Source: Roseivivax sp. GX 12232
Lineage (GTDB): Bacteria; Pseudomonadota; Alphaproteobacteria; Rhodobacterales; Rhodobacteraceae
DNA: 64,000 bases
NCBI RefSeq assembly: GCF_021272185.1
Contig: NZ_JAJSEC010000005.1
Coordinates: forward strand, 124,001 to 188,000
Reading direction: 5' to 3'
Below the pieces are notes generated by a model. It was not told the origin of the DNA and made no database searches. It saw only the letters and a list, made by a program, of their open reading frames with translations. Position 1 is the first letter of the stretch. Each line of letters starts with the position of its first letter. Shown in pieces: positions 51,677 through 60,582 of this stretch. The position numbers and the translations under genes were made by a program.

Positions 51677-52147
51677 ATGCCCCTCCCCCGCTTCCTGACC
51701 GCCGCGCTGACGCTTGCGGCGCTGGCCGCCCCGAGCTTCGCGAGCGCCGAGACCTCCGTGGCCATGGAGGTTGTCCGCCCGGTCGCCACCGAGACCGGCG
51801 AGACCGCCTTCGAGCCGGTCGAGACCGCCCTGCCGGGCGAGCCGCTGGTCTACCGCATCGCGCTCAGCAACACCGATCCGGTGCCCGCGACATCGGTCGG
51901 GCTCTCGCTGCCGCTCGACGGCAACCTCGCCATCGACCCGGCCTCGGTCAGCGCAGAGACGCCGCTCACCGTGCGCTTCTCGGCCGACGGGGGCGCGAGC
52001 TACGCGCCCTTCTCCGAGCTCACGGTCGAGGAGAACGGCGAGACCCGGCAGGCCCAGCCGACGGACCTCACGCATCTGCAGATCGAGATCGCCGAGATCG
52101 CCGCCGAGAGCCAGGTCGCCGTGACCTATGACGCCGTCGTCCGCTAA
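51677..52147 (+). CDS. Secreted DUF11-like protein, small
   Basis: 156 residues. Signal peptide LTAALTLAALAAPSFASAE with cleavage after ASA; then one beta-sandwich domain of the DUF11 / conserved-repeat type: GEPLVYRIALSNTDPVPATS, VGLSLPLDGNLAIDP and VRFSADGGASYAPFSEL. ATG at 51677 has GACGGAGAC before it and the signal peptide directly after. It is the first gene of a five-gene plus-strand series of secreted proteins. A 27-bp tandem repeat begins inside its last codons and carries its TAA stop. The function is unknown; a periplasmic or surface partner of the barrel protein is likely. Confidence 0.8.
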   Translation: MPLPRFLTAALTLAALAAPSFASAETSVAMEVVRPVATETGETAFEPVETALPGEPLVYRIALSNTDPVPATSVGLSLPLDGNLAIDPASVSAETPLTVRFSADGGASYAPFSELTVEENGETRQAQPTDLTHLQIEIAEIAAESQVAVTYDAVVR

Positions 52148-52267
52148 GACGGACGCTTAGGCCATGTCCGCTGAGACGGACGCGCTGGCCTTGTCCGCTG
52201 AGGCGGACGCGCTGGCCAAATCCGCCAAGTCGAACGCCCCGGCCAAGTCCGCGAAGACGGACGCCCC
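52133..52267 (+). repeat. 27-bp imperfect tandem repeat, five units
   Basis: Units start at 52133, 52160, 52187, 52214 and 52241; a unit reads GGCCTTGTCCGCTGAGGCGG plus ACGCGCT. Each contains a small inverted repeat (GTCCG...CGGAC in the best units). Unit 1 holds the stop of the upstream gene. The later units are open in the frame of the next gene and would encode nine-residue repeats of the type SAETDALAL. Confidence 0.85.
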
Positions 52268-52295
52268 GGCCCTTCATCCAACCAGGAGACAGACC

Positions 52296-53327
52296 ATGCC
52301 CCATCGCGCCCTGCGCCGATCGCTTCTCTGCGCCCTGTCCTCGACCGCGCTGGCCGGTGCGGCCCAGGCCGCCGGCACCGCGCCCGGCACCTCGGTGTCG
52401 AGCTCGGTCAGCATTTCCTACTCGAGCGGCGGCACCACGATCACCCAGGAGGACGCCGCCAGCGTCGCCTTCGTCGTCGACCGCAAGGTCGACTTCAGCT
52501 TCCAGGGCCAGGCCGCGGGCGACGCAGTGCTGGCCGCCCAGGGCGCCGAGGGCCAGACCATGGTCTTCCGGCTCGAGAACGAGGGCAACGACGCCTCGGG
52601 CTACGACATCGACATCGCCACCTCGGGCGAGATCGGGCTCGACTTCGACGCCGCGGGCGGCGGCGCGCCGGGCAGCTACTCGGTCTACGTGGGCGACAGC
52701 CCCGAGGTCGCACCCGAAGACGCGCTCTACGATATCGCGGGCACGGCGAACCTCGGCGACCTGGCCGCCGACGCGGTGCGCTTCGTGAAGGTGGTGGCGC
52801 ATATCCCCGGCAGCGCCGCCGATGGCGCCACGGATGCCTTCGACGTGACCGCAACGGCGCTCGATCCCGGCACCGACACGGTGACCACCGAAATCCGCGG
52901 CCAGGGCCTGCAGGGCATCGACACCATCCTGACCGACCCCGGCGAGGACGGGCTCGAGCTGCAAAGCGAACGCTACGTGGTCCAGGCCCCGCAGCTCTCG
53001 GCGCTGAAGGAGGCGGCGGTGATCTCGGAGAACCTCGACGGCGGTTTCGACTGCGGCAGCGATCCCGCCGATCCCGCCGCCGAGGCCGCGGTGCCCGGGG
53101 CCTGCGTGGAATACACCATCTCGGTCACCAATGCCGCCGAGGCCAGCTCGGACGCGGTCAATGTGACCATCACCGACGCCCTGCCCGAGGGCATCACTTA
53201 TGCCGGCACCGCCGCCACCACCGGCTTCGACCGGGTGAACGAGGCCGGCGGCACGGTGACCGCCGAGCTTGCCGCCCTGGCGCCCGGCGCCACCGCCAGC
53301 TTCCGCATCCGCGCGGTGGTCGACTGA
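52296..53327 (+). CDS. Secreted DUF11 domain protein A
   Basis: 343 residues. Signal peptide SLLCALSSTALAGAAQAAG. An N-terminal domain (SSSVSISYSSGGTTITQEDA) is followed by a DUF11 domain at about 225-343: QAPQLSALKEAAVISENLDG, a cysteine pair in GGFDCGS and VPGACVEYTISVTNAA, then ITDALPEGITYAGTAATTGF. ATG at 52296 has GGAGAC upstream. The frame is open a further 44 codons upstream through the 27-bp repeats, which would hide the signal peptide, so that start is rejected. It is a close paralogue of the next gene. Its likely location is periplasmic or cell surface. Confidence 0.82.
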   Translation: MPHRALRRSLLCALSSTALAGAAQAAGTAPGTSVSSSVSISYSSGGTTITQEDAASVAFVVDRKVDFSFQGQAAGDAVLAAQGAEGQTMVFRLENEGNDASGYDIDIATSGEIGLDFDAAGGGAPGSYSVYVGDSPEVAPEDALYDIAGTANLGDLAADAVRFVKVVAHIPGSAADGATDAFDVTATALDPGTDTVTTEIRGQGLQGIDTILTDPGEDGLELQSERYVVQAPQLSALKEAAVISENLDGGFDCGSDPADPAAEAAVPGACVEYTISVTNAAEASSDAVNVTITDALPEGITYAGTAATTGFDRVNEAGGTVTAELAALAPGATASFRIRAVVD

Positions 53328-53365
53328 TGCCCGCCAGAGAGACGACAGCAGCACCGGAAAGAGCC

Positions 53366-54391
53366 ATGACCCAAGCCCGCATCCTTTCGCTGACCACCTG
53401 TTGCGCCGGGGCGCTCGCCGCGCCCATGGCCATGGCCGGGGGCCAGGCGCCCGGCACGCCGATCTCCAACGCGGTGACGGTGAGCTATGCCTCGGGCGGC
53501 GACGTGATCACCCTGCCCGAGACCCCGGCGGCCAGTTTCTCGGTCGACCAGCGGCTCTCCTTCACCTTCGCGCCGCTCGACGATCCGGCCAGCGTGAACG
53601 TGGAGCCCGGCGCCGCCACGCAGGAGATCCGCTTCCTGCTGACCAACACCGGCAATGCCGCGGCGCCCTTCGACATCGACCTCTCCGCGATCGAGGACCA
53701 GCTCGGCCTAAGCTACGACGCCGAGGCCAGCGGCGCCGAGGGCACCTATTCGGTGGTCCTGCGCTCGGCCGAAGGCGCCGAGGGCACGCCCTATGACCCG
53801 ACCGGCACCCAGGCGACCCCGGCGCTTGCCGCCGACGGTTCGCTGATCGTGGTGCTGCGCGCCTCGATCCCGCGCAGCGCCAGCGACGGCCAGGTCAGCG
53901 CCTTCGAGGCCAGCGCTGTGCCGCTTGCACCGGGCGGCGGCGAACGCCAGCCCGAGGTCACCGGCCAGGGGCTCGAGGCGGTGGACATCGTCTACGGCGA
54001 CCCCGGCGGCGACGGCCGCGAGGCGGGCTCGGCCAGCTACCGGGTGCTGGCCCCGCAGCTCTCGGCGGTGAAGGACGTGGTGGTCATCTCGGAGAACCGC
54101 GCCGGGGGCTTCGACTGCGCCAGCGGAGCGCCCGAGGTCGGGGCCGAGGCCTTCGTGCCCGGCGCCTGCGTGGAATACACGATCACCCTGTCGAACGCCG
54201 AGGCCGCGAGCAGCGCCGCCACGCTCCTGGCCTTCAACGACGCCCTGCCCGAGACGGTGAGCTATACTGCCATCGCCGGGAACAACGGCTTCGACGAGGT
54301 CGCGGTCCGCGACGGCGTGATCCGCGGCGAGGTCGGCAGCCTGGCGCCCGGGGCCTCGGCCACGGTGCGGGTGCGGGCGACGGTCGATTGA
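53366..54391 (+). CDS. Secreted DUF11 domain protein B
   Basis: 341 residues. Signal peptide ILSLTTCCAGALAAPMAMAG; the N-terminal domain (GTPISNAVTVSYASGGDVIT) and C-terminal DUF11 domain (APQLSAVKDVVVISENRAGG, cysteines in GGFDCAS and VPGACVEYTITLSNAE, then FNDALPETVSYTAIAG) align with protein A along their whole length, so the pair arose by duplication. ATG at 53366 with GGAAAG is preferred. An ATG at 53327 overlapping the previous stop (TGATG) is in frame 13 codons earlier and could provide coupling. Confidence 0.82.
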   Translation: MTQARILSLTTCCAGALAAPMAMAGGQAPGTPISNAVTVSYASGGDVITLPETPAASFSVDQRLSFTFAPLDDPASVNVEPGAATQEIRFLLTNTGNAAAPFDIDLSAIEDQLGLSYDAEASGAEGTYSVVLRSAEGAEGTPYDPTGTQATPALAADGSLIVVLRASIPRSASDGQVSAFEASAVPLAPGGGERQPEVTGQGLEAVDIVYGDPGGDGREAGSASYRVLAPQLSAVKDVVVISENRAGGFDCASGAPEVGAEAFVPGACVEYTITLSNAEAASSAATLLAFNDALPETVSYTAIAGNNGFDEVAVRDGVIRGEVGSLAPGASATVRVRATVD

Positions 54392-54395
54392 CCGG

Positions 54396-57300
54396 ATGCG
54401 CCGATCTGATGCGATTGCCCGCTGGCGCCGGCTCGTCCCGGCGCTGGCCCTGGCCGCCGCGGCGCCCGCGGGCGCGCAGGACCGCCTGCCCGGCGGCGCG
54501 CCGGAGCCCTCCCCCGCGGGAGAAGAGATCACCAACCGGGTGATCATCGAGTTCGGCCCCGAGGGCAGCGCCCTGCCCCCGATCGAGGCCGAGAGCACGA
54601 TCACCGTCCTCGCCCCGGAGCTGCCGGGCGAGCTGACCGCCTTCCGCGTCGCGGGCCAAAGCGCCGAGGCGCTCCGGACCGAGATCGCCCCGGCGGATTA
54701 CAGCGTCAGCGGCAGCCCCTCGGGGCCCTTCGACCGGGTGCCGCGCGCCGCGCCCGCGCCCATGGCCGCGCGCATCGCTCCGGCCGAACGGGTGCGCCCG
54801 GATGAAGACGTGATCTTCCTGCTCGAAGACCCGCTCGAGAACACCGACCCCGAGGTGCGCGACGCCGCGACCCTGCGGATCACCGATTCGGTCAGCGGCG
54901 ACAGCGAGCTGTTGCGGATCTACGAGACCGGCAAGAACACCGCGACCTTCGCGGGAGCGATCTGCGCCTGCAGCGACAGCCCGCGCGGCCCCGACGGGGT
55001 GCTCGCGACCGAGGCCAACTCCCGGGTCATGGCCCGGGCCGCCAGCGCCCGCGCGCCCGACCGGGTCTTCGAGGACAGCGTGACCGTCGGCCCGGTCACC
55101 CCGCGCGGACGGGTCTTCGACAGCCGCAGCGGCACGCCGCTCAACGGCGCGCGGATCACCATCATCGACGCCGAGACCGGCGCCCCGGCCGAGGTCTTCG
55201 GCGAGGACCTCGAGGCCCCCTTCCCCGCCACGGTGACCAGCGGTGGCCAGGTCAGCGACGCCTCGGGCGAGACCTATGACTTCGCCCCGGGCAGCTACCG
55301 CTTTCCCTATGTCGAACCCGGCTCCTACGTCTTCGTGATGACCCCGCCCGAGGGTTACCTGGCGCCCAGCTCGCGCCGCCCCGAAGAGGTCGCGCCCCCG
55401 CCCGGCGGCGCCCCCGAGGTGACCGGCGCCTCCTATCTCAAACCCTTCGACATCTCCCCCGGCGAGGTGCTGGTCTACGACATCCCGCTGGACGGCGCGG
55501 CGCTGGTCGACGTGAGCCGCAGCGGCTCGGCCGAGCGGCTGACCGCGGGCGAGGCGATCCGCTACACCGCCACTGTCGGCGGCTCGGTGCCCGGCGAGAC
55601 GCGGGTCGATGTGACCGACCTTCTGCCCGAGGGGCTGAAGCGGGTGCCGGGCTCGCTCAGGATCGACGGCGCCCGCCCCGAGGCCGAGGTCACCCGCTCC
55701 CGCGATGGCCGGCAGCTGGTGATCTCGGACATGGTCCTGCCCGAGGGCCGCCGCCGCAGCATCACCTATACCGCCCGGGTGACCGTCGCCGCGCCCGACC
55801 GCGGCACGCTGACCTCGCGCACCAGCGTCTCGGGAGAGAGCTTCAACACCGCCTCGGCGCAGCACCGGCTCGAGGTCGGCCCCGCCTTCGCGCGCGACGA
55901 AAGCGCGGTGCTGGGCGAGGTGGTCCTGGGCTGCGGCCCCGCCGCGGGCCCGCCCGAGCGCGACCTCTCGGGCATCCGCATCATGCTGGAGAACGGCCGC
56001 TTCGCCGAGACCGACGCCCGCGGGCGCTTCACCCTGCGCCGGGTGCCGCGCGGCGGCCATGTGCTGGCGCTCGACCGCTTCACCCTGCCGCGCGGGCTGG
56101 AGCCGGTGCTCTGCCGCAACAACACCCGCCGCGCCGGGGCGGCGGGCTCGGTCTTCCTCGAGACCCGCGACGGCTTCGCCCGGCGCATCCGCTTCCACCT
56201 GACCGAGGTGCCCCCGCGCGAAGCACCCGACCCCGAGGTGCCCGCGCCGCCGCGCATCACCAGCTATGACGCGGGTTGGCTCGACGCCGCGCCGCGCCGC
56301 GCGGGCCTGCATTTCCCGCCCGAGGGCTTCCTGCCGCCGGTGCGCAGCCTCTCCGCCGCGGTGGTCCGGCAGAAGGGCCAGACCGCGCGGCTGTTCCTGA
56401 ACGGCACGCCGGTGCCCGAGATCTACCGCCGCCCCGCCGTCGCCGCCGAGGGCGGGGGCCGCTTCCTCGACATCTGGCGCGGGGCCGAGCTGGACTTCGG
56501 GGTCAACGACCTCCGGCTCGAGATCCGCGACGCCAGCGGCACCCTGGTCCGCCAGGAGACCCGGCAGCTGCGCTTCACCGACCGCGCCGCCCGGCTCGAG
56601 GTGCTCGAGGAGATGTCGGACCTCTCCACCGATGGCCGCGCCCGCCCGCTGGTCGTCTTTCGCGCCACCGATGCCGAGGGCACGCCGCTGCACCCCGGTG
56701 CCATCGTCGCGATCACTGTCGAGCGGCCCTTCGCCTTCGCCCCGGGCGAGCGGCTGAACGGCGCGCGCCAGGGCGCCGAGCCGATCCAGCGCACCACCGC
56801 CAGCGTCGATGCCGACGGCCGCTTCCGGATGCGTCTCGCGCCCAGCCGCCGCTCGGGCCTCGCGCGGTTCACCCTGCGCGACGGCGAGCGCGAGCTGACC
56901 GCCAGCGCGCCGATCTCGGCGGCGGACCGTGACTGGACGGCGGCGGGCCTCGTCGAGGCGCGGCTCGCCGGCCGCGATGTCGCCCGCGCGCTGAAGACCC
57001 CCGGCGACCGGCGGCTCCTGAGCTTCGGCGACGCCGCGCTCGACGGTCATGCCGCGCTCTTTCTCGAGGGCATCGCCCCGGGCGGTTGGCACCTGACCCT
57101 GCGCTACGACAGCGCCATCGACCCCGACGAACGCGACTTCTTCGCCGAGGACCCCGAGCGCGACTACCTGGTCTATGGCGACGAAAGCACCGAGGGCGAC
57201 GCCGCCAGCAGCCGCTCGCCGCTTTACCTGCGGCTCGAACGCGGCGGCACCGATCTGCTCTGGGGCGATTTCGACACCGCGATCGGCCGCGAGAGGCTGG

Positions 57301-59405
57301 CCGAATACGACCGCCGCCTGACCGGCGCGCGGGCCAGCTTCACCGGCGAGACCCAGGCCCTGCGGCTCTTCGCCGCCGAGACGAGCCTCGCCTATGCCGA
57401 GGACCGCTTTCCCGCCGATGGCACCACCGGGCCTTTCGATCTGAAGCGCAGCGACATCCTGCCCAATTCCGAAAGCCTGACGGTCGAGACCACCGCGCGC
57501 GACGATCCCACCCGGGTCATCGCCCGCCGCGAGCTGACCGCCGGGCGCGACTACAGCATCGACTACGTGGACGGGCGGATCTTCCTGGCCCGCCCGCTGC
57601 GGGCACGCACGCCCGATCTCGACCGCAACACGCTGGTGGTCCGCTACGAGACCGAGACCGCGCGCCGGAGCGGGGTGATCCTCGGCGCCCGCTACGAGGT
57701 CGCCCCGACCGAGGACCTGAGCGCCGGGGTGACGCTGGTGCACGAGGACGACGTCGGCGGCACGACCGGGGCGGGCCAGCTCGGCGCGGTCGATGCGCGC
57801 TACCGTTTCTCCGAGACGCTGACCGCCCATGGCGAGCTGGCGCTCTCGCGGCAGGGCGCCTCGAACCTGCTTTCCGATCCGCGCGTGACCCATGCCGCCG
57901 AACTGGGCTTCCGCTTCGACGATGGCAGCACCACCGCCGAGGGCTACCTGCGCTCGCAAAGCACCGGCTTCGGCATCGCCAATCTCACCCCCGATCCCCA
58001 GCGCATCGACATCGCGCATCTCAGCGCCGACCTCCTGCTCTCCGAGGAGGTGACCGAGGCCCCGGACGGCACCGAGACCCGCCGCAGCCTGCGCTTCCAG
58101 GGCCAGGCCCGGCTCGAGCGCAACGCCGAGACCGGCGAGACGCTGGAGATGGCCGAGGCCAGCCTCATCCGCAGCCGCGACCGCCTGACCCGCAGCGCCG
58201 GGCTGCGCTACGCCGGCCGCCGGGGCGCGCCGGACCGTGACGACGGGCAGGTGCTCAAGGGTTTTCTCGGCAGCGAATATGAAAGCGCCGACGGAAGGCT
58301 GCGCCTCGCCTTCACCCAGGAGCTGACGCTCTGGAACGAGGGCGCGCGGGCCGAGGCCGACCTCGGCGCGCTCTCCGTAGATTACGCCCTGACCGAGCGG
58401 CTGCGGCTCACCGCCAGCAACGAGGTCGCCTGGGGCGAGGATTTCCGCGTCGACATCCTGGCCATCGGGGCCGAGCTGACCCTCTGGGAGGGCGCGCGGC
58501 TCTCGGGCGGGCTGGTCAATGCCTCGGGCCGGGACCAGAGCCAGACAGTGGGCCACCTGGGCTTCGACCAGGCGCTGCCCCTGACCGACCGGCTGAGCGG
58601 TTACTTCGGCCTAGAGGCCCAGGACGCGCTGGCGGGCGACCTGGCCGAGACCGGCCCCGCGGCGCGCGGCGGGCTGACCAACCCGCGGCTCTCCGAAGGC
58701 TTCGTCAGCGCCAGCGCCGGGCTCGAACACGCCGGGCCCGACTGGCGCGGCGCGGTCGACGCCGAGCTCGGCTTCACCACCGAAAGCGATCACGCAAGGC
58801 TGCAGCTCGAGGCGACGACGCCGCTCTCCGAGGCGCTGTCGCTCGGGGCCCATGCCAGCTTCTTCTGGTCCGAGGGCGCCGAGGGGGCGCTCGAACGCGA
58901 CCACGAGATCAAGCTCAGCGCCGCCTGGCGCCCCTTCGATCGGCCTTTCGTGCTGCTCAACCAGTTCAGCGCCCGGCGCGAGGTCGCGGGCGAGACCGAC
59001 GAGACGCGGCTGATGAACGAGCTCTTCCACACCCGCGAGCTGTCCGACCGGAGCGAGCTCTCCCTGCGCCACGGGCTGAAACATGTCTCCCAGTCGCTCG
59101 GCGGCGGCGAGACGGCAGAAGAGGTGCTGACGCTGGTCGGCGCGGAATACCGCCGCGACCTGACCGACTGGCTCGATCTGGGCCTGCACGGCGCCAGCCT
59201 CTGGGCGATGGAGGATGGCAGCCAGCAGGGCTCGGCCGGGGTCTCGCTGGGCTTCACCCCCTTCGAGAACGGCTGGATCGCGCTCGGCTACAACGTCGAG
59301 GGTTTCGCCGACCCGGACTTCAGCGAGGCGGGCTACACCGACAAGGGCGCCTTCCTGCAGTTCCGCTTCAAGATCGACCAGGACAATTTCAACGAGGTCT
59401 TCTGA
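54396..59405 (+). CDS. Giant secreted DUF11 protein with C-terminal outer-membrane beta-barrel-like region
   Basis: 1669 residues. The signal peptide is LVPALALAAAAPAGAQD. Residues 40-90 resemble the N-terminal domain of proteins A and B (EEITNRVIIEFGPEGS). About 240-320 is a carboxypeptidase-regulatory-like fold (GRVFDSRSGTPLNGARITII). About 370-480 is a DUF11 domain (RLTAGEAIRYTATVGG, VTDLLPEGLKRVPGS). About 520-560 is an SdrD-B-like segment (GIRIMLENGRFAETDARGRF). From about 1000 to the end, alternating strands rich in Leu, Glu, Arg and aromatic residues end in DNFNEVF; a terminal Phe is the usual signal for BAM-inserted barrels. It starts 4 nt after protein B. No family name is offered. 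It could anchor or export the DUF11 proteins, or be a single surface protein of unknown role. Confidence 0.8.
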   Translation: MRRSDAIARWRRLVPALALAAAAPAGAQDRLPGGAPEPSPAGEEITNRVIIEFGPEGSALPPIEAESTITVLAPELPGELTAFRVAGQSAEALRTEIAPADYSVSGSPSGPFDRVPRAAPAPMAARIAPAERVRPDEDVIFLLEDPLENTDPEVRDAATLRITDSVSGDSELLRIYETGKNTATFAGAICACSDSPRGPDGVLATEANSRVMARAASARAPDRVFEDSVTVGPVTPRGRVFDSRSGTPLNGARITIIDAETGAPAEVFGEDLEAPFPATVTSGGQVSDASGETYDFAPGSYRFPYVEPGSYVFVMTPPEGYLAPSSRRPEEVAPPPGGAPEVTGASYLKPFDISPGEVLVYDIPLDGAALVDVSRSGSAERLTAGEAIRYTATVGGSVPGETRVDVTDLLPEGLKRVPGSLRIDGARPEAEVTRSRDGRQLVISDMVLPEGRRRSITYTARVTVAAPDRGTLTSRTSVSGESFNTASAQHRLEVGPAFARDESAVLGEVVLGCGPAAGPPERDLSGIRIMLENGRFAETDARGRFTLRRVPRGGHVLALDRFTLPRGLEPVLCRNNTRRAGAAGSVFLETRDGFARRIRFHLTEVPPREAPDPEVPAPPRITSYDAGWLDAAPRRAGLHFPPEGFLPPVRSLSAAVVRQKGQTARLFLNGTPVPEIYRRPAVAAEGGGRFLDIWRGAELDFGVNDLRLEIRDASGTLVRQETRQLRFTDRAARLEVLEEMSDLSTDGRARPLVVFRATDAEGTPLHPGAIVAITVERPFAFAPGERLNGARQGAEPIQRTTASVDADGRFRMRLAPSRRSGLARFTLRDGERELTASAPISAADRDWTAAGLVEARLAGRDVARALKTPGDRRLLSFGDAALDGHAALFLEGIAPGGWHLTLRYDSAIDPDERDFFAEDPERDYLVYGDESTEGDAASSRSPLYLRLERGGTDLLWGDFDTAIGRERLAEYDRRLTGARASFTGETQALRLFAAETSLAYAEDRFPADGTTGPFDLKRSDILPNSESLTVETTARDDPTRVIARRELTAGRDYSIDYVDGRIFLARPLRARTPDLDRNTLVVRYETETARRSGVILGARYEVAPTEDLSAGVTLVHEDDVGGTTGAGQLGAVDARYRFSETLTAHGELALSRQGASNLLSDPRVTHAAELGFRFDDGSTTAEGYLRSQSTGFGIANLTPDPQRIDIAHLSADLLLSEEVTEAPDGTETRRSLRFQGQARLERNAETGETLEMAEASLIRSRDRLTRSAGLRYAGRRGAPDRDDGQVLKGFLGSEYESADGRLRLAFTQELTLWNEGARAEADLGALSVDYALTERLRLTASNEVAWGEDFRVDILAIGAELTLWEGARLSGGLVNASGRDQSQTVGHLGFDQALPLTDRLSGYFGLEAQDALAGDLAETGPAARGGLTNPRLSEGFVSASAGLEHAGPDWRGAVDAELGFTTESDHARLQLEATTPLSEALSLGAHASFFWSEGAEGALERDHEIKLSAAWRPFDRPFVLLNQFSARREVAGETDETRLMNELFHTRELSDRSELSLRHGLKHVSQSLGGGETAEEVLTLVGAEYRRDLTDWLDLGLHGASLWAMEDGSQQGSAGVSLGFTPFENGWIALGYNVEGFADPDFSEAGYTDKGAFLQFRFKIDQDNFNEVF

Positions 59406-59406
59406 G

Positions 59407-60582
59407 ATGCGCCCCGGCCCCTTCCCCCACGCGCCCCGGGCGGCGCTGATCCCCCTGGCTTGCGCGCTAAGCCTCGCCGCGGGTGGCGCCGGGGCCGCGA
59501 CCTGCGCCAGCCCCGAGGCCGAGATGCTGCTCGACTGGTCCGGGGCCGGCTGGAAATCCGGCGCCCGGAGCGCGACCCTTTCCGCCGAGCGCCGCGCCGG
59601 GCCCGAGGCGGGCCCCGCCGATGCCGTGGGCCTCGATCTCTCGGGTGCCACCACGCGCATCCGCCCGGGCTACCCCGAGGCCAGCTCGGAATTCACCGGC
59701 GGGCGCGGCGCGGGCACCGACAGCCTCGCGCTCCTGATGGATTTCGCCAACAACAGCGAGGCGCTGACCCTGCGCTTCGACTTCCCGCGCGCGGTCGAGG
59801 GCCTCTCCTTCGCGATCTTTGACATCGACTACCTGCCCTATCGGACCTCGCGCGGCCGGGTGACCCAGCGCGGCTTCCGCGACGGGGTGGAGATCACCGG
59901 CTGGACCGCCGAGGGGGCGCCCGTCACGCCGCAGCTCTCCTCGCCGCATATCCCGCCCGGCGCGCGCAGCGCCTCCGGCGCCTCGATCTACCTCGGCTCC
60001 CCCCTGACCGACCGCCAGGCGGTGGGCTATGAGCGCAACGCCGCCCCCGCCGACGACATGGGCAACCTCGAGGTGCGCTTCGCAGAGCCCGTCGCGGCGC
60101 TGAGCGTGCGCTATACCAACGGGCTCTACCCGCCCTCCTCGAACCCCCAGGCCCAGGCCATCGCGCTTTCGGACCTGAGCTATTGCGCCCCGCTCGGCGC
60201 AGAGCTCTCGGTCAGCAAGAGCCAGCGGGTGATCTCCGAGGACGGCGCGGCCTGCGCGAGCCTGCCAGCCGATGACAGCCCGGCCCCCGGCGCGCCCGGC
60301 GGCGCCGCGATCCCCGGCGCCTGCATCGAATACCGCATCGCGGTCACCAACGAGGGCGACGCCCCCGCCCGAAAAATCGCGCTCAGCGACAGGCTCGACG
60401 CGGCGCTGATCTTCCAGGCCGCCCGCGCCACGGGGTTCGCCGGCGGCACATCCGCCGAGCTTGTCAGCCACCCCGCCAAGGGCACCCGCTGCGCCGCCGG
60501 CGCCTGCACCGTGGCCCTCGACGGCGCCGAGCTCTCCGCCGGCGCCAGCGGCGCCCTCCTGATCCGCGCCAAGGTCCGCTGA
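59407..60582 (+). CDS. Secreted DUF11 domain protein C
   Basis: 391 residues. Signal peptide ALIPLACALSLAAGGAGAAT. Residues 30-270 form a distinct domain (MLLDWSGAGWKSGARSATL, LLMDFANNSEALTLRFDFPR, VEGLSFAIFDIDYLPY) that looks like a secreted carbohydrate- or matrix-binding sandwich but was not identified. Residues 275-391 are a DUF11 domain with the cysteine arrangement of proteins A and B (SKSQRVISEDGAACASL, IPGACIEYRIAVTNEGDAPA). The start is one base after the barrel gene stop. It is the last gene of the operon; a hairpin pair follows at 60782-60820. Confidence 0.8.
   Translation: MRPGPFPHAPRAALIPLACALSLAAGGAGAATCASPEAEMLLDWSGAGWKSGARSATLSAERRAGPEAGPADAVGLDLSGATTRIRPGYPEASSEFTGGRGAGTDSLALLMDFANNSEALTLRFDFPRAVEGLSFAIFDIDYLPYRTSRGRVTQRGFRDGVEITGWTAEGAPVTPQLSSPHIPPGARSASGASIYLGSPLTDRQAVGYERNAAPADDMGNLEVRFAEPVAALSVRYTNGLYPPSSNPQAQAIALSDLSYCAPLGAELSVSKSQRVISEDGAACASLPADDSPAPGAPGGAAIPGACIEYRIAVTNEGDAPARKIALSDRLDAALIFQAARATGFAGGTSAELVSHPAKGTRCAAGACTVALDGAELSAGASGALLIRAKVR

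Follow-up and report, generated by a model that had tools for sequence, protein, structure and literature searches.

Genes that end inside DUF11 domains suggest a head-to-tail chain of secreted Ig-like proteins on a predicted outer-membrane barrel

What might be built by an operon of secreted proteins, several of which stop before their last domain is complete? The question is raised by five consecutive, co-directional genes (P0001 to P0005) that form an operon on the plus strand at positions 51677-60582 of the window, i.e. the whole 64,000-nucleotide stretch of DNA that was analysed; the genome carrying it (Roseivivax sp. GX 12232) is 4.12 Mb in size. Gaps of 4 bases and 1 base separate P0003 from P0004 and P0004 from P0005, respectively. 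The original prediction had described five plus-strand genes with signal peptides, and both points held: the genes are real, and on visual inspection each of the five N-termini looks like a signal peptide. It had also assigned DUF11-type domains (Pfam PF01345) to four of the proteins. The assignment stood for P0002 (46.9 bits) and P0003 (29.9 bits), while P0005 (23.3 bits) and P0004 (18.0 bits) remained below the Pfam cut-off of 24.6. P0001 had no Pfam match; its TIGR01451 score (23.4) was just under the cut-off of 24. The cysteine pair and the PGAC(V/I)EY motif attributed to three members were found in P0002, P0003 and P0005. For the giant protein P0004, the proposed CarboxypepD_reg part was sub-threshold (29.2, cut-off 32.3), and SdrD_B was not among its Pfam matches, being clear in two relatives (46.7 in L057 and 47.5 in L162). 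Its C-terminal Phe is real, but most of the relatives listed end differently. The original prediction missed that gene ends cut through the DUF11 domains and that these might be completed between chains.

The five proteins differ in what they carry at their two ends. P0001 (51677..52147) is a secreted S-type protein of ~156 aa with an acceptor-like C-terminus (VTYDAVVR at its end); it has no N-terminal donor hairpin, and not a single Lys was found in the whole chain. P0002, whose likelier start gives 52296..53327 (52164 being the start listed), is an M-type middle subunit composed of an N-terminal hairpin, an Ig-like domain and a truncated DUF11 domain with FRIRAVVD as its end. Its donor hairpin (52371..52481) contains no Asn, since Ser80 (52401-52403) occupies the usual Asn site; its acceptor domain includes a putative isopeptide Lys (Lys282, 53007..53009) and a putative catalytic Asp (Asp338, 53175..53177). 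A 27-base unit repeated 4.9 times was observed at 52139-52271, in the interval that separates P0001 from the start favoured for P0002; the longer ORF of P0002 reads through it, but the repeat is probably not coding. P0003 (likely 53366..54391, with an alternative start at 53327) is a second middle subunit whose truncated DUF11 domain ends in VRVRATVD. Its donor hairpin (53438..53548) contains Asn48 (53468-53470), and its candidate isopeptide Lys and catalytic Asp are Lys249 (54071..54073) and Asp305 (54239..54241). The giant P0004 (54396..59405) has a donor hairpin at 54519..54611 with Asn47 (54534-54536), an arm of DUF11- and CarboxypepD_reg-like domains, and a C-terminal barrel. The DUF11 domain of its arm (55518..55814) is not cut; it shows Arg375 at the Lys site and Thr473 at the Asn site, and keeps Asp408. 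Finally, P0005 (59407..60582) has an extra N-terminal domain with no Pfam match followed by an acceptor DUF11 domain (Lys274, Asp331) that terminates in LIRAKVR; it lacks the donor hairpin.

In P0002, P0003 and P0005 the DUF11 domain is not complete within one chain: the Pfam matches stop at position 84 of the 114 of the model because the protein chains end there. The relatives described below show the same arrangement. In 80 of 89 giants, a model built on their complete DUF11 domains extended to positions 126-128 of 128, while the same model, when applied to the C-termini of the subunits, matched 97 of 273 and ended at 85-91 in 70 of those 97. The C-terminal strand pattern was present in 269 of the 273 unique subunit ORFs, as compared with 157 of 684 background genes; a stricter version of the pattern was found in 259 subunits and 60 background genes. 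Sequence comparison therefore gives good support to the idea that the DUF11 domains are interrupted where the genes end.

A motif, GxxIxNxAxV, is common to middle subunits and giants and follows their signal peptide directly; the second strand of the hairpin to which it belongs often ends in SNxVxxxV. The hairpin profiles of subunits and giants matched each other (hhalign probability 97.2, E 4e-11). A donor model trained on M-type proteins detected the hairpin in 83 of 85 M-type ORFs, in 56 of 79 A-type ORFs (the 23 missed include some in which the A-type alignment does show the motif), and in none of the 109 ORFs of the S-, R- and P5-types. In a structure model of mature P0002 (pLDDT 93.2, pTM 0.79), the two strands of the hairpin (residues 8-19 and 22-35) were confidently placed and the chain ended with a strand at 308-317; its structural neighbours were general Ig-like proteins (integrin alpha, AP-4 mu, RbmA, WxLIP). 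Judged by sequence, the two elements expected of a donor-strand-type arrangement, namely an Ig domain at the C-terminus that is incomplete at its end and a donor segment at the N-terminus, thus both appear to be present.

Does the hairpin resemble the end that the acceptors lack? When real hairpins were joined to acceptors, the complete-domain score increased by 2.75 bits on average (n = 125), as against 0.29 bits for 2500 shuffled hairpins and -0.03 bits for 1250 internal 40-mers, although 12.4% of the shuffles reached the real median. The effect was weaker in the Pfam scores: that of P0002 was 46.9 bits alone, 48.6-52.8 joined and 49.0 with a shuffled tail, that of P0003 29.9, 35.6-36.9 and 32.0, and that of P0005 23.3, 32.2-32.3 and 31.2, respectively; this test is too weak when taken alone, given that one shuffled tail scored above a real one (49.0 versus 48.6) and another came near (31.2 versus 32.3). 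Direct comparison of the hairpin profiles with the terminal hairpin of the uncut DUF11 domain in giants gave no significant match (P 0.06-0.2), and a coevolution analysis of 90 sequences (effective number 57) revealed no enrichment for hairpin pairs. Six middle subunits of 870 residues contain the strand, a hairpin and the next domain in one chain (VTFKATVAD-GVPAGIIPNTATQSVDGTAFPDSNTAQITVD). No internal stretch matched the giants' donor profile better than this junction, though the match was not significant over 340 comparisons, and the subunit donor profile preferred another place. For tandem DUF11 proteins, a seed search gave nothing and a further search produced weak matches. Altogether, the likeness of the hairpin to the absent end of DUF11 is moderately supported by these comparisons.

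The strongest evidence comes from the conserved residues of a putative isopeptide triad. DUF11 was renamed CLIPPER in 2025, and the solved CLIPPER domain (PDB 9IFR) contains an intramolecular Lys715-Asn806 bond for which Asp748 is the presumed catalyst (PMC12617251, in excerpt). Residues were assigned to those of 9IFR by spacing and motif, not by alignment. Both the corresponding Lys and the corresponding Asp were present in every cut acceptor aligned (84 of 84 M-type and 71 of 71 A-type rows, 155 of 155 in all), and the hairpin Asn was present in 79 of 84 M-type and 70 of 70 A-type rows, one more A-type row being gapped (149 of 154 together); these counts cover 84 of the 85 M-type, 71 of the 79 A-type and, for the R-type mentioned below, 20 of the 21 ORFs, those of 650 residues or more having been left out. 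The giants' hairpins contained the Asn in 75 of 76 cases. After clustering at 60% identity, Lys and Asp were found in all 57 clusters and Asn in 54. When 22 M-type acceptors were joined to donors, invariance was confined to the columns of the Lys, the PGA motif, a mid-acceptor Asn, the Asp and the Asn of the hairpin. The spacing also agrees: Asp and Asn are 55-66 residues apart in the giants' uncut DUF11 domains and 58 in 9IFR by its numbering, while the acceptor chains end ~60 (A-type mean) or ~70 (M-type mean) residues past the Asp, about where the Asn would come. The giants' uncut domain acts as an internal control. It has Lys, Asp and Asn in 74 of 76 giants, and Arg, Asp and Thr in the window and its Tranquillimonas orthologue; Lys and Asn have been lost together in one lineage.

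The putative triad is not universal. S-type acceptors show no conserved Lys, and in 69 of 82 the Asp site is occupied by Asn; some joints, accordingly, cannot be covalent. The Lys was present in 17 of 20 R-type acceptors and was absent from one of the eight P5-type rows shown (L073). In the window, the Asn is found in the hairpins of P0003 and P0004, and Lys and Asp in the acceptors of P0002, P0003 and P0005. With Lys absent from P0001 and Asn from the P0002 hairpin, a P0001-P0002 joint, if it forms, would be non-covalent.

The gene set recurs in other genomes. The nearest relative of the giant found was in Tranquillimonas rosea (Rhodobacterales; 70% identity), of the same family as the genome carrying the window. 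Matches to P0004 were detected in 10 of 289 genomes of a class sample and in 61 of 292 of an order sample, the latter mostly over part of the barrel only. A profile covering the 1000 C-terminal residues of the giants matched in at least 56 of 398 genomes of a phylum sample, other classes included, and a middle-subunit profile in at least three of the 289 class-sample genomes, the same three whose giants match the whole profile; both tallies are lower bounds, two candidates (seven in one search) having been scored per genome. One genome with a divergent giant (G169) had no middle-subunit profile match, and a 978-residue gene occupies that place. A single-protein scan of genome contigs confirmed no relative, but an alignment-based scan did find relatives. 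Those analysed were the best 80 of 488 in named genomes, with titles mostly of sphingomonads, and distant relatives are under-represented as a consequence of this selection.

The neighbourhoods are built from a recurring set of parts: the giant, an S-type gene resembling P0001 (~160 residues), between one and three middle genes of the P0002/P0003 kind (mostly 290-480 residues, although some reach ~870-980) and, in some cases, an additional acceptor that is either R-type (~170 residues) or P0005-like. An S-type gene and at least one middle gene accompanied 80 of 80 giants with enough flanking sequence, and R- or P5-type genes 25 of them; this count leaves aside 13 of the 93 giants (short flanks or short ORFs), it rests, as do the subunit counts, on family models trained on the same loci, and independent loci are slightly fewer, at least two being duplicated (the L052 = L072 and L056 = L122 contigs). 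Outside the training set (L162-L173, ten loci from other classes and two from the same class), an S-type gene was found in 9 of 12 loci, and in 7 of the 10 from other classes; it was missing at L168, L170 and L173, the first and last of which are cut by contig ends. The order A-S-M-giant was observed in 64 of 80 loci; chain order cannot, therefore, simply be read from gene order.

Some loci depart from this layout. In four (L064, L065, L066 and L067) the barrel is encoded alone (~1150-1190 aa, ending in FI/FLNxIAKF or close to it) and adjoins a separate tandem-DUF11 protein (open frame of up to 4251 aa), a split-gene variant of arm and barrel. In L071 an arm (740 aa) and a barrel (1432 aa) are separate adjoining genes, and two more genes end in acceptor-like strands. 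Similar response-regulator-like genes, ending in IARDAGF(V/I), lie beside the operon in L057, L059, L062 and L063; so named by eye, they are possible regulators.

The barrel-like region announced for the C-terminus of P0004 was recovered as a large barrel in an AlphaFold2 model of the last 1029 residues (pLDDT 81.0, pTM 0.71). The predicted outer-membrane barrel spans 56937..59375 and has ~40 strands, a DSSP count over model residues 208-1020 minus an insertion (367-436) that is uncertain by several, residues 220-300 being poorly modelled. The insertion between barrel strands (57414..57623, ~70 residues) carries a DYxIDxxxGxI motif and is plug-like by position only. In structural comparisons the model aligned with FimD (VIA Z 15.2, rmsd 7.3, 315 residues aligned) and PapC (VIA Z 14.9, rmsd 7.3, 335 aligned), followed by Deinococcus SlpA (Z 14.2) and the porin OmpU (Z 13.6). 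Since porins score close behind, the likeness to ushers was not read as homology. Foldseek placed SlpA entries (8ae1, 8agd, 7zgx) on top and also returned SprA complexes, all with low TM-scores; the direct comparison with SprA gave a VIA Z of 10.4 and an rmsd of 25.8, and Pfam found no SprA match for P0004. PDB sequence searches with P0004, A2, A3 and A4 yielded only weak matches, and the absence of 9IFR among them carries no weight as evidence. In the giants of two relatives, the barrel is immediately preceded by an OmpA-type domain, recognised by Pfam in L162 and from its motif in L168. This points to a periplasmic location for that part of the arm and makes surface exposure less certain. 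The original prediction of a secreted structure, which hinged on a barrel being there and on the gene set recurring across genomes, withstood both tests: the model contains a barrel and the gene set was consistent (80/80 flanked giants). Its idea of a structure with an outer-membrane barrel of its own is supported by the conserved gene set, the co-occurrence in the class sample and the barrel model.

These features are best accommodated by a head-to-tail chain of secreted Ig-like subunits, with domains completed in trans, probably covalently, on an outer-membrane barrel; we consider the balance to tip slightly in favour of this reading. Trans completion, the bond, chain order, the length of the fibre, passage through the barrel and surface location are what we infer, and the course of events would be as follows. 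Signal peptides would take the subunits across the inner membrane, and their loss would free the hairpin. Acceptor subunits would present a DUF11 (CLIPPER) domain without its last hairpin, and the gap would be filled, in a manner similar to donor-strand complementation, by the hairpin at the N-terminus of the giant or of a different subunit. With Lys and the putative catalytic Asp in the acceptor, and Asn in the hairpin, completion should give a spontaneous Lys-Asn bond between chains. The acceptor-only P0001 and P0005 would sit at chain ends away from the giant, P0002 and P0003 would be middle pieces, and the giant, a donor only, would be the base at the membrane. The P0002-P0003 and P0003-P0004 joints would have complete triads. 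A covalent tip, if there is one, would most likely be P0005, which has the reactive residues plus an extra domain; the S-type protein could serve as a non-covalent tip or, instead, shield hairpins as a chaperone. The chain may exit through the barrel or span the envelope. A bolder version, to which we give somewhat less than an even chance, is that of a natural tag/catcher fibre in which split CLIPPER domains weld a chain ordered by complementary ends, with its base welded to a ~40-strand barrel that gives the chain passage to the cell surface, with no chaperone, usher or sortase involved.

Other readings were weighed against the covalent head-to-tail chain. Domains might be completed in trans without any bond, as in chaperone-usher or type V pili, the triad being kept for packing. 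The persistence of S-type acceptors and some donors that lack the reactive residues would fit this, as would the reported existence of many DUF11 domains with no bond (PMC12617251, in excerpt); however, Lys and Asp are kept in all 155 aligned acceptors even though their own chain has no Asn at that site, and Lys and Asn disappear together from the giants' uncut domain, which renders the reading unlikely, if one to be taken seriously. Alternatively, each hairpin could complete the C-terminal domain of the chain to which it belongs, so that every subunit would be covalently closed by itself and would not polymerise. The confident hairpin in the lone P0002 model (pLDDT ~90) fits self-closure and a partner's groove equally. 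Self-closure, improbable in our judgement, would not account for a giant with a donor and a barrel as its C-terminus, for P0001-, R- and P5-type acceptors in which no donor was detected, or for P0002, which has the Lys but no Asn in its own hairpin.

That the barrel is an export pore or an uptake channel, with the DUF11 proteins as periplasmic partners or cargo and no fibre at all, appears about as improbable as self-closure. Its best structural matches are indeed usher pores (FimD and PapC), SprA was returned by Foldseek, and the OmpA-type domain precedes the barrel in two relatives; even so, the closeness of porins (Z 13.6) makes the usher likeness partly generic, and the giant shares the hairpin of the subunits, which suits a base. 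Finally, the hairpin could be part of the N-terminal Ig domain and the C-terminal DUF11 merely a short variant, with no strand exchange. That hairpins and complete DUF11 ends match weakly when their profiles are compared directly would agree with this, but acceptors that keep Lys and Asp without the Asn, hairpins that keep the Asn, and subunits that end at the same strand make it very improbable.

A literature search, made mostly without subscription journals and preprints, found no description of this operon or of a natural split DUF11 domain. If true, the covalent head-to-tail chain would represent a new way of building a Gram-negative surface fibre, one that is spontaneous, directional and covalent, and whose assembly is written into where genes start and stop. 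It would provide a natural counterpart of a popular laboratory protein glue, would suggest what a widespread DUF11 gene set does, and might be a source of new tag/catcher pairs.

Chaperone-usher pili combine an incomplete C-terminal Ig domain, an N-terminal donor, an acceptor-only end protein and an outer-membrane barrel. The operon described here resembles them in the first three features and in its predicted barrel; it differs in that the donor is a hairpin and not one strand, in the triad suited to forming a bond, and in that the barrel protein itself carries a donor. Neither a PapD-type chaperone (PF00345, at E 0.001) nor an usher (PF00577) was matched in the genome, with positive E. coli controls for both; a search of the genome for Sortase (PF04203) was also negative, with positive controls in three Gram-positive genomes. 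A classical autotransporter is not indicated either: Pfam found no autotransporter family in P0004, and ~40 strands were modelled as opposed to 12. In SpyTag/SpyCatcher and other engineered split CnaB domains, the parts of an isopeptide domain join in trans; those pairs were engineered from complete CnaB domains, whereas the domains here are CnaA-like and apparently natural. The split domains resemble the CLIPPER domain of 9IFR in their Pfam family and in the Lys, Asp and Asn kept, and the giants' uncut domain has a similar Asp-Asn spacing. The CLIPPER domains of fibrillar adhesins, however, are complete in one chain and their bond is intramolecular (for both comparisons, PMC12617251, in excerpt), while here gene ends cut the domain and the Asn would lie, by the pairing we infer, on another chain.

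As for large barrels, SprA, the type IX translocon, is a single-chain barrel of 36 strands, the largest known according to the part of a 2020 review drawn on here, which also describes the type IX system as specific to Bacteroidetes (PMC7463736). P0004 resembles it, by its model and with a weak structural match, in being a very large single-chain outer-membrane barrel, and the predicted ~40 strands would exceed those of SprA. The SlpA outer-membrane protein of Deinococcus was, at low TM-scores, the top Foldseek match to the barrel. Type V pili are made from lipidated precursors whose acceptor groove is released by a protease, and the Saci_0406 thread of Sulfolobus consists of donor-strand-linked subunits with a proposed inter-subunit isopeptide bond (PMC9715654, in excerpt). 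In that archaeal thread, according to the same excerpt, the bond is between Asn57 and the N-terminal amine of Asp24, two subunits further on, and there is neither an outer membrane nor a barrel. Strand donation and isopeptide bonds thus each have precedents; their combination, the gene set and the donor-bearing barrel fitted none of the classes compared, and the nearest published counterparts found were the archaeal threads and the engineered split CnaB domains.
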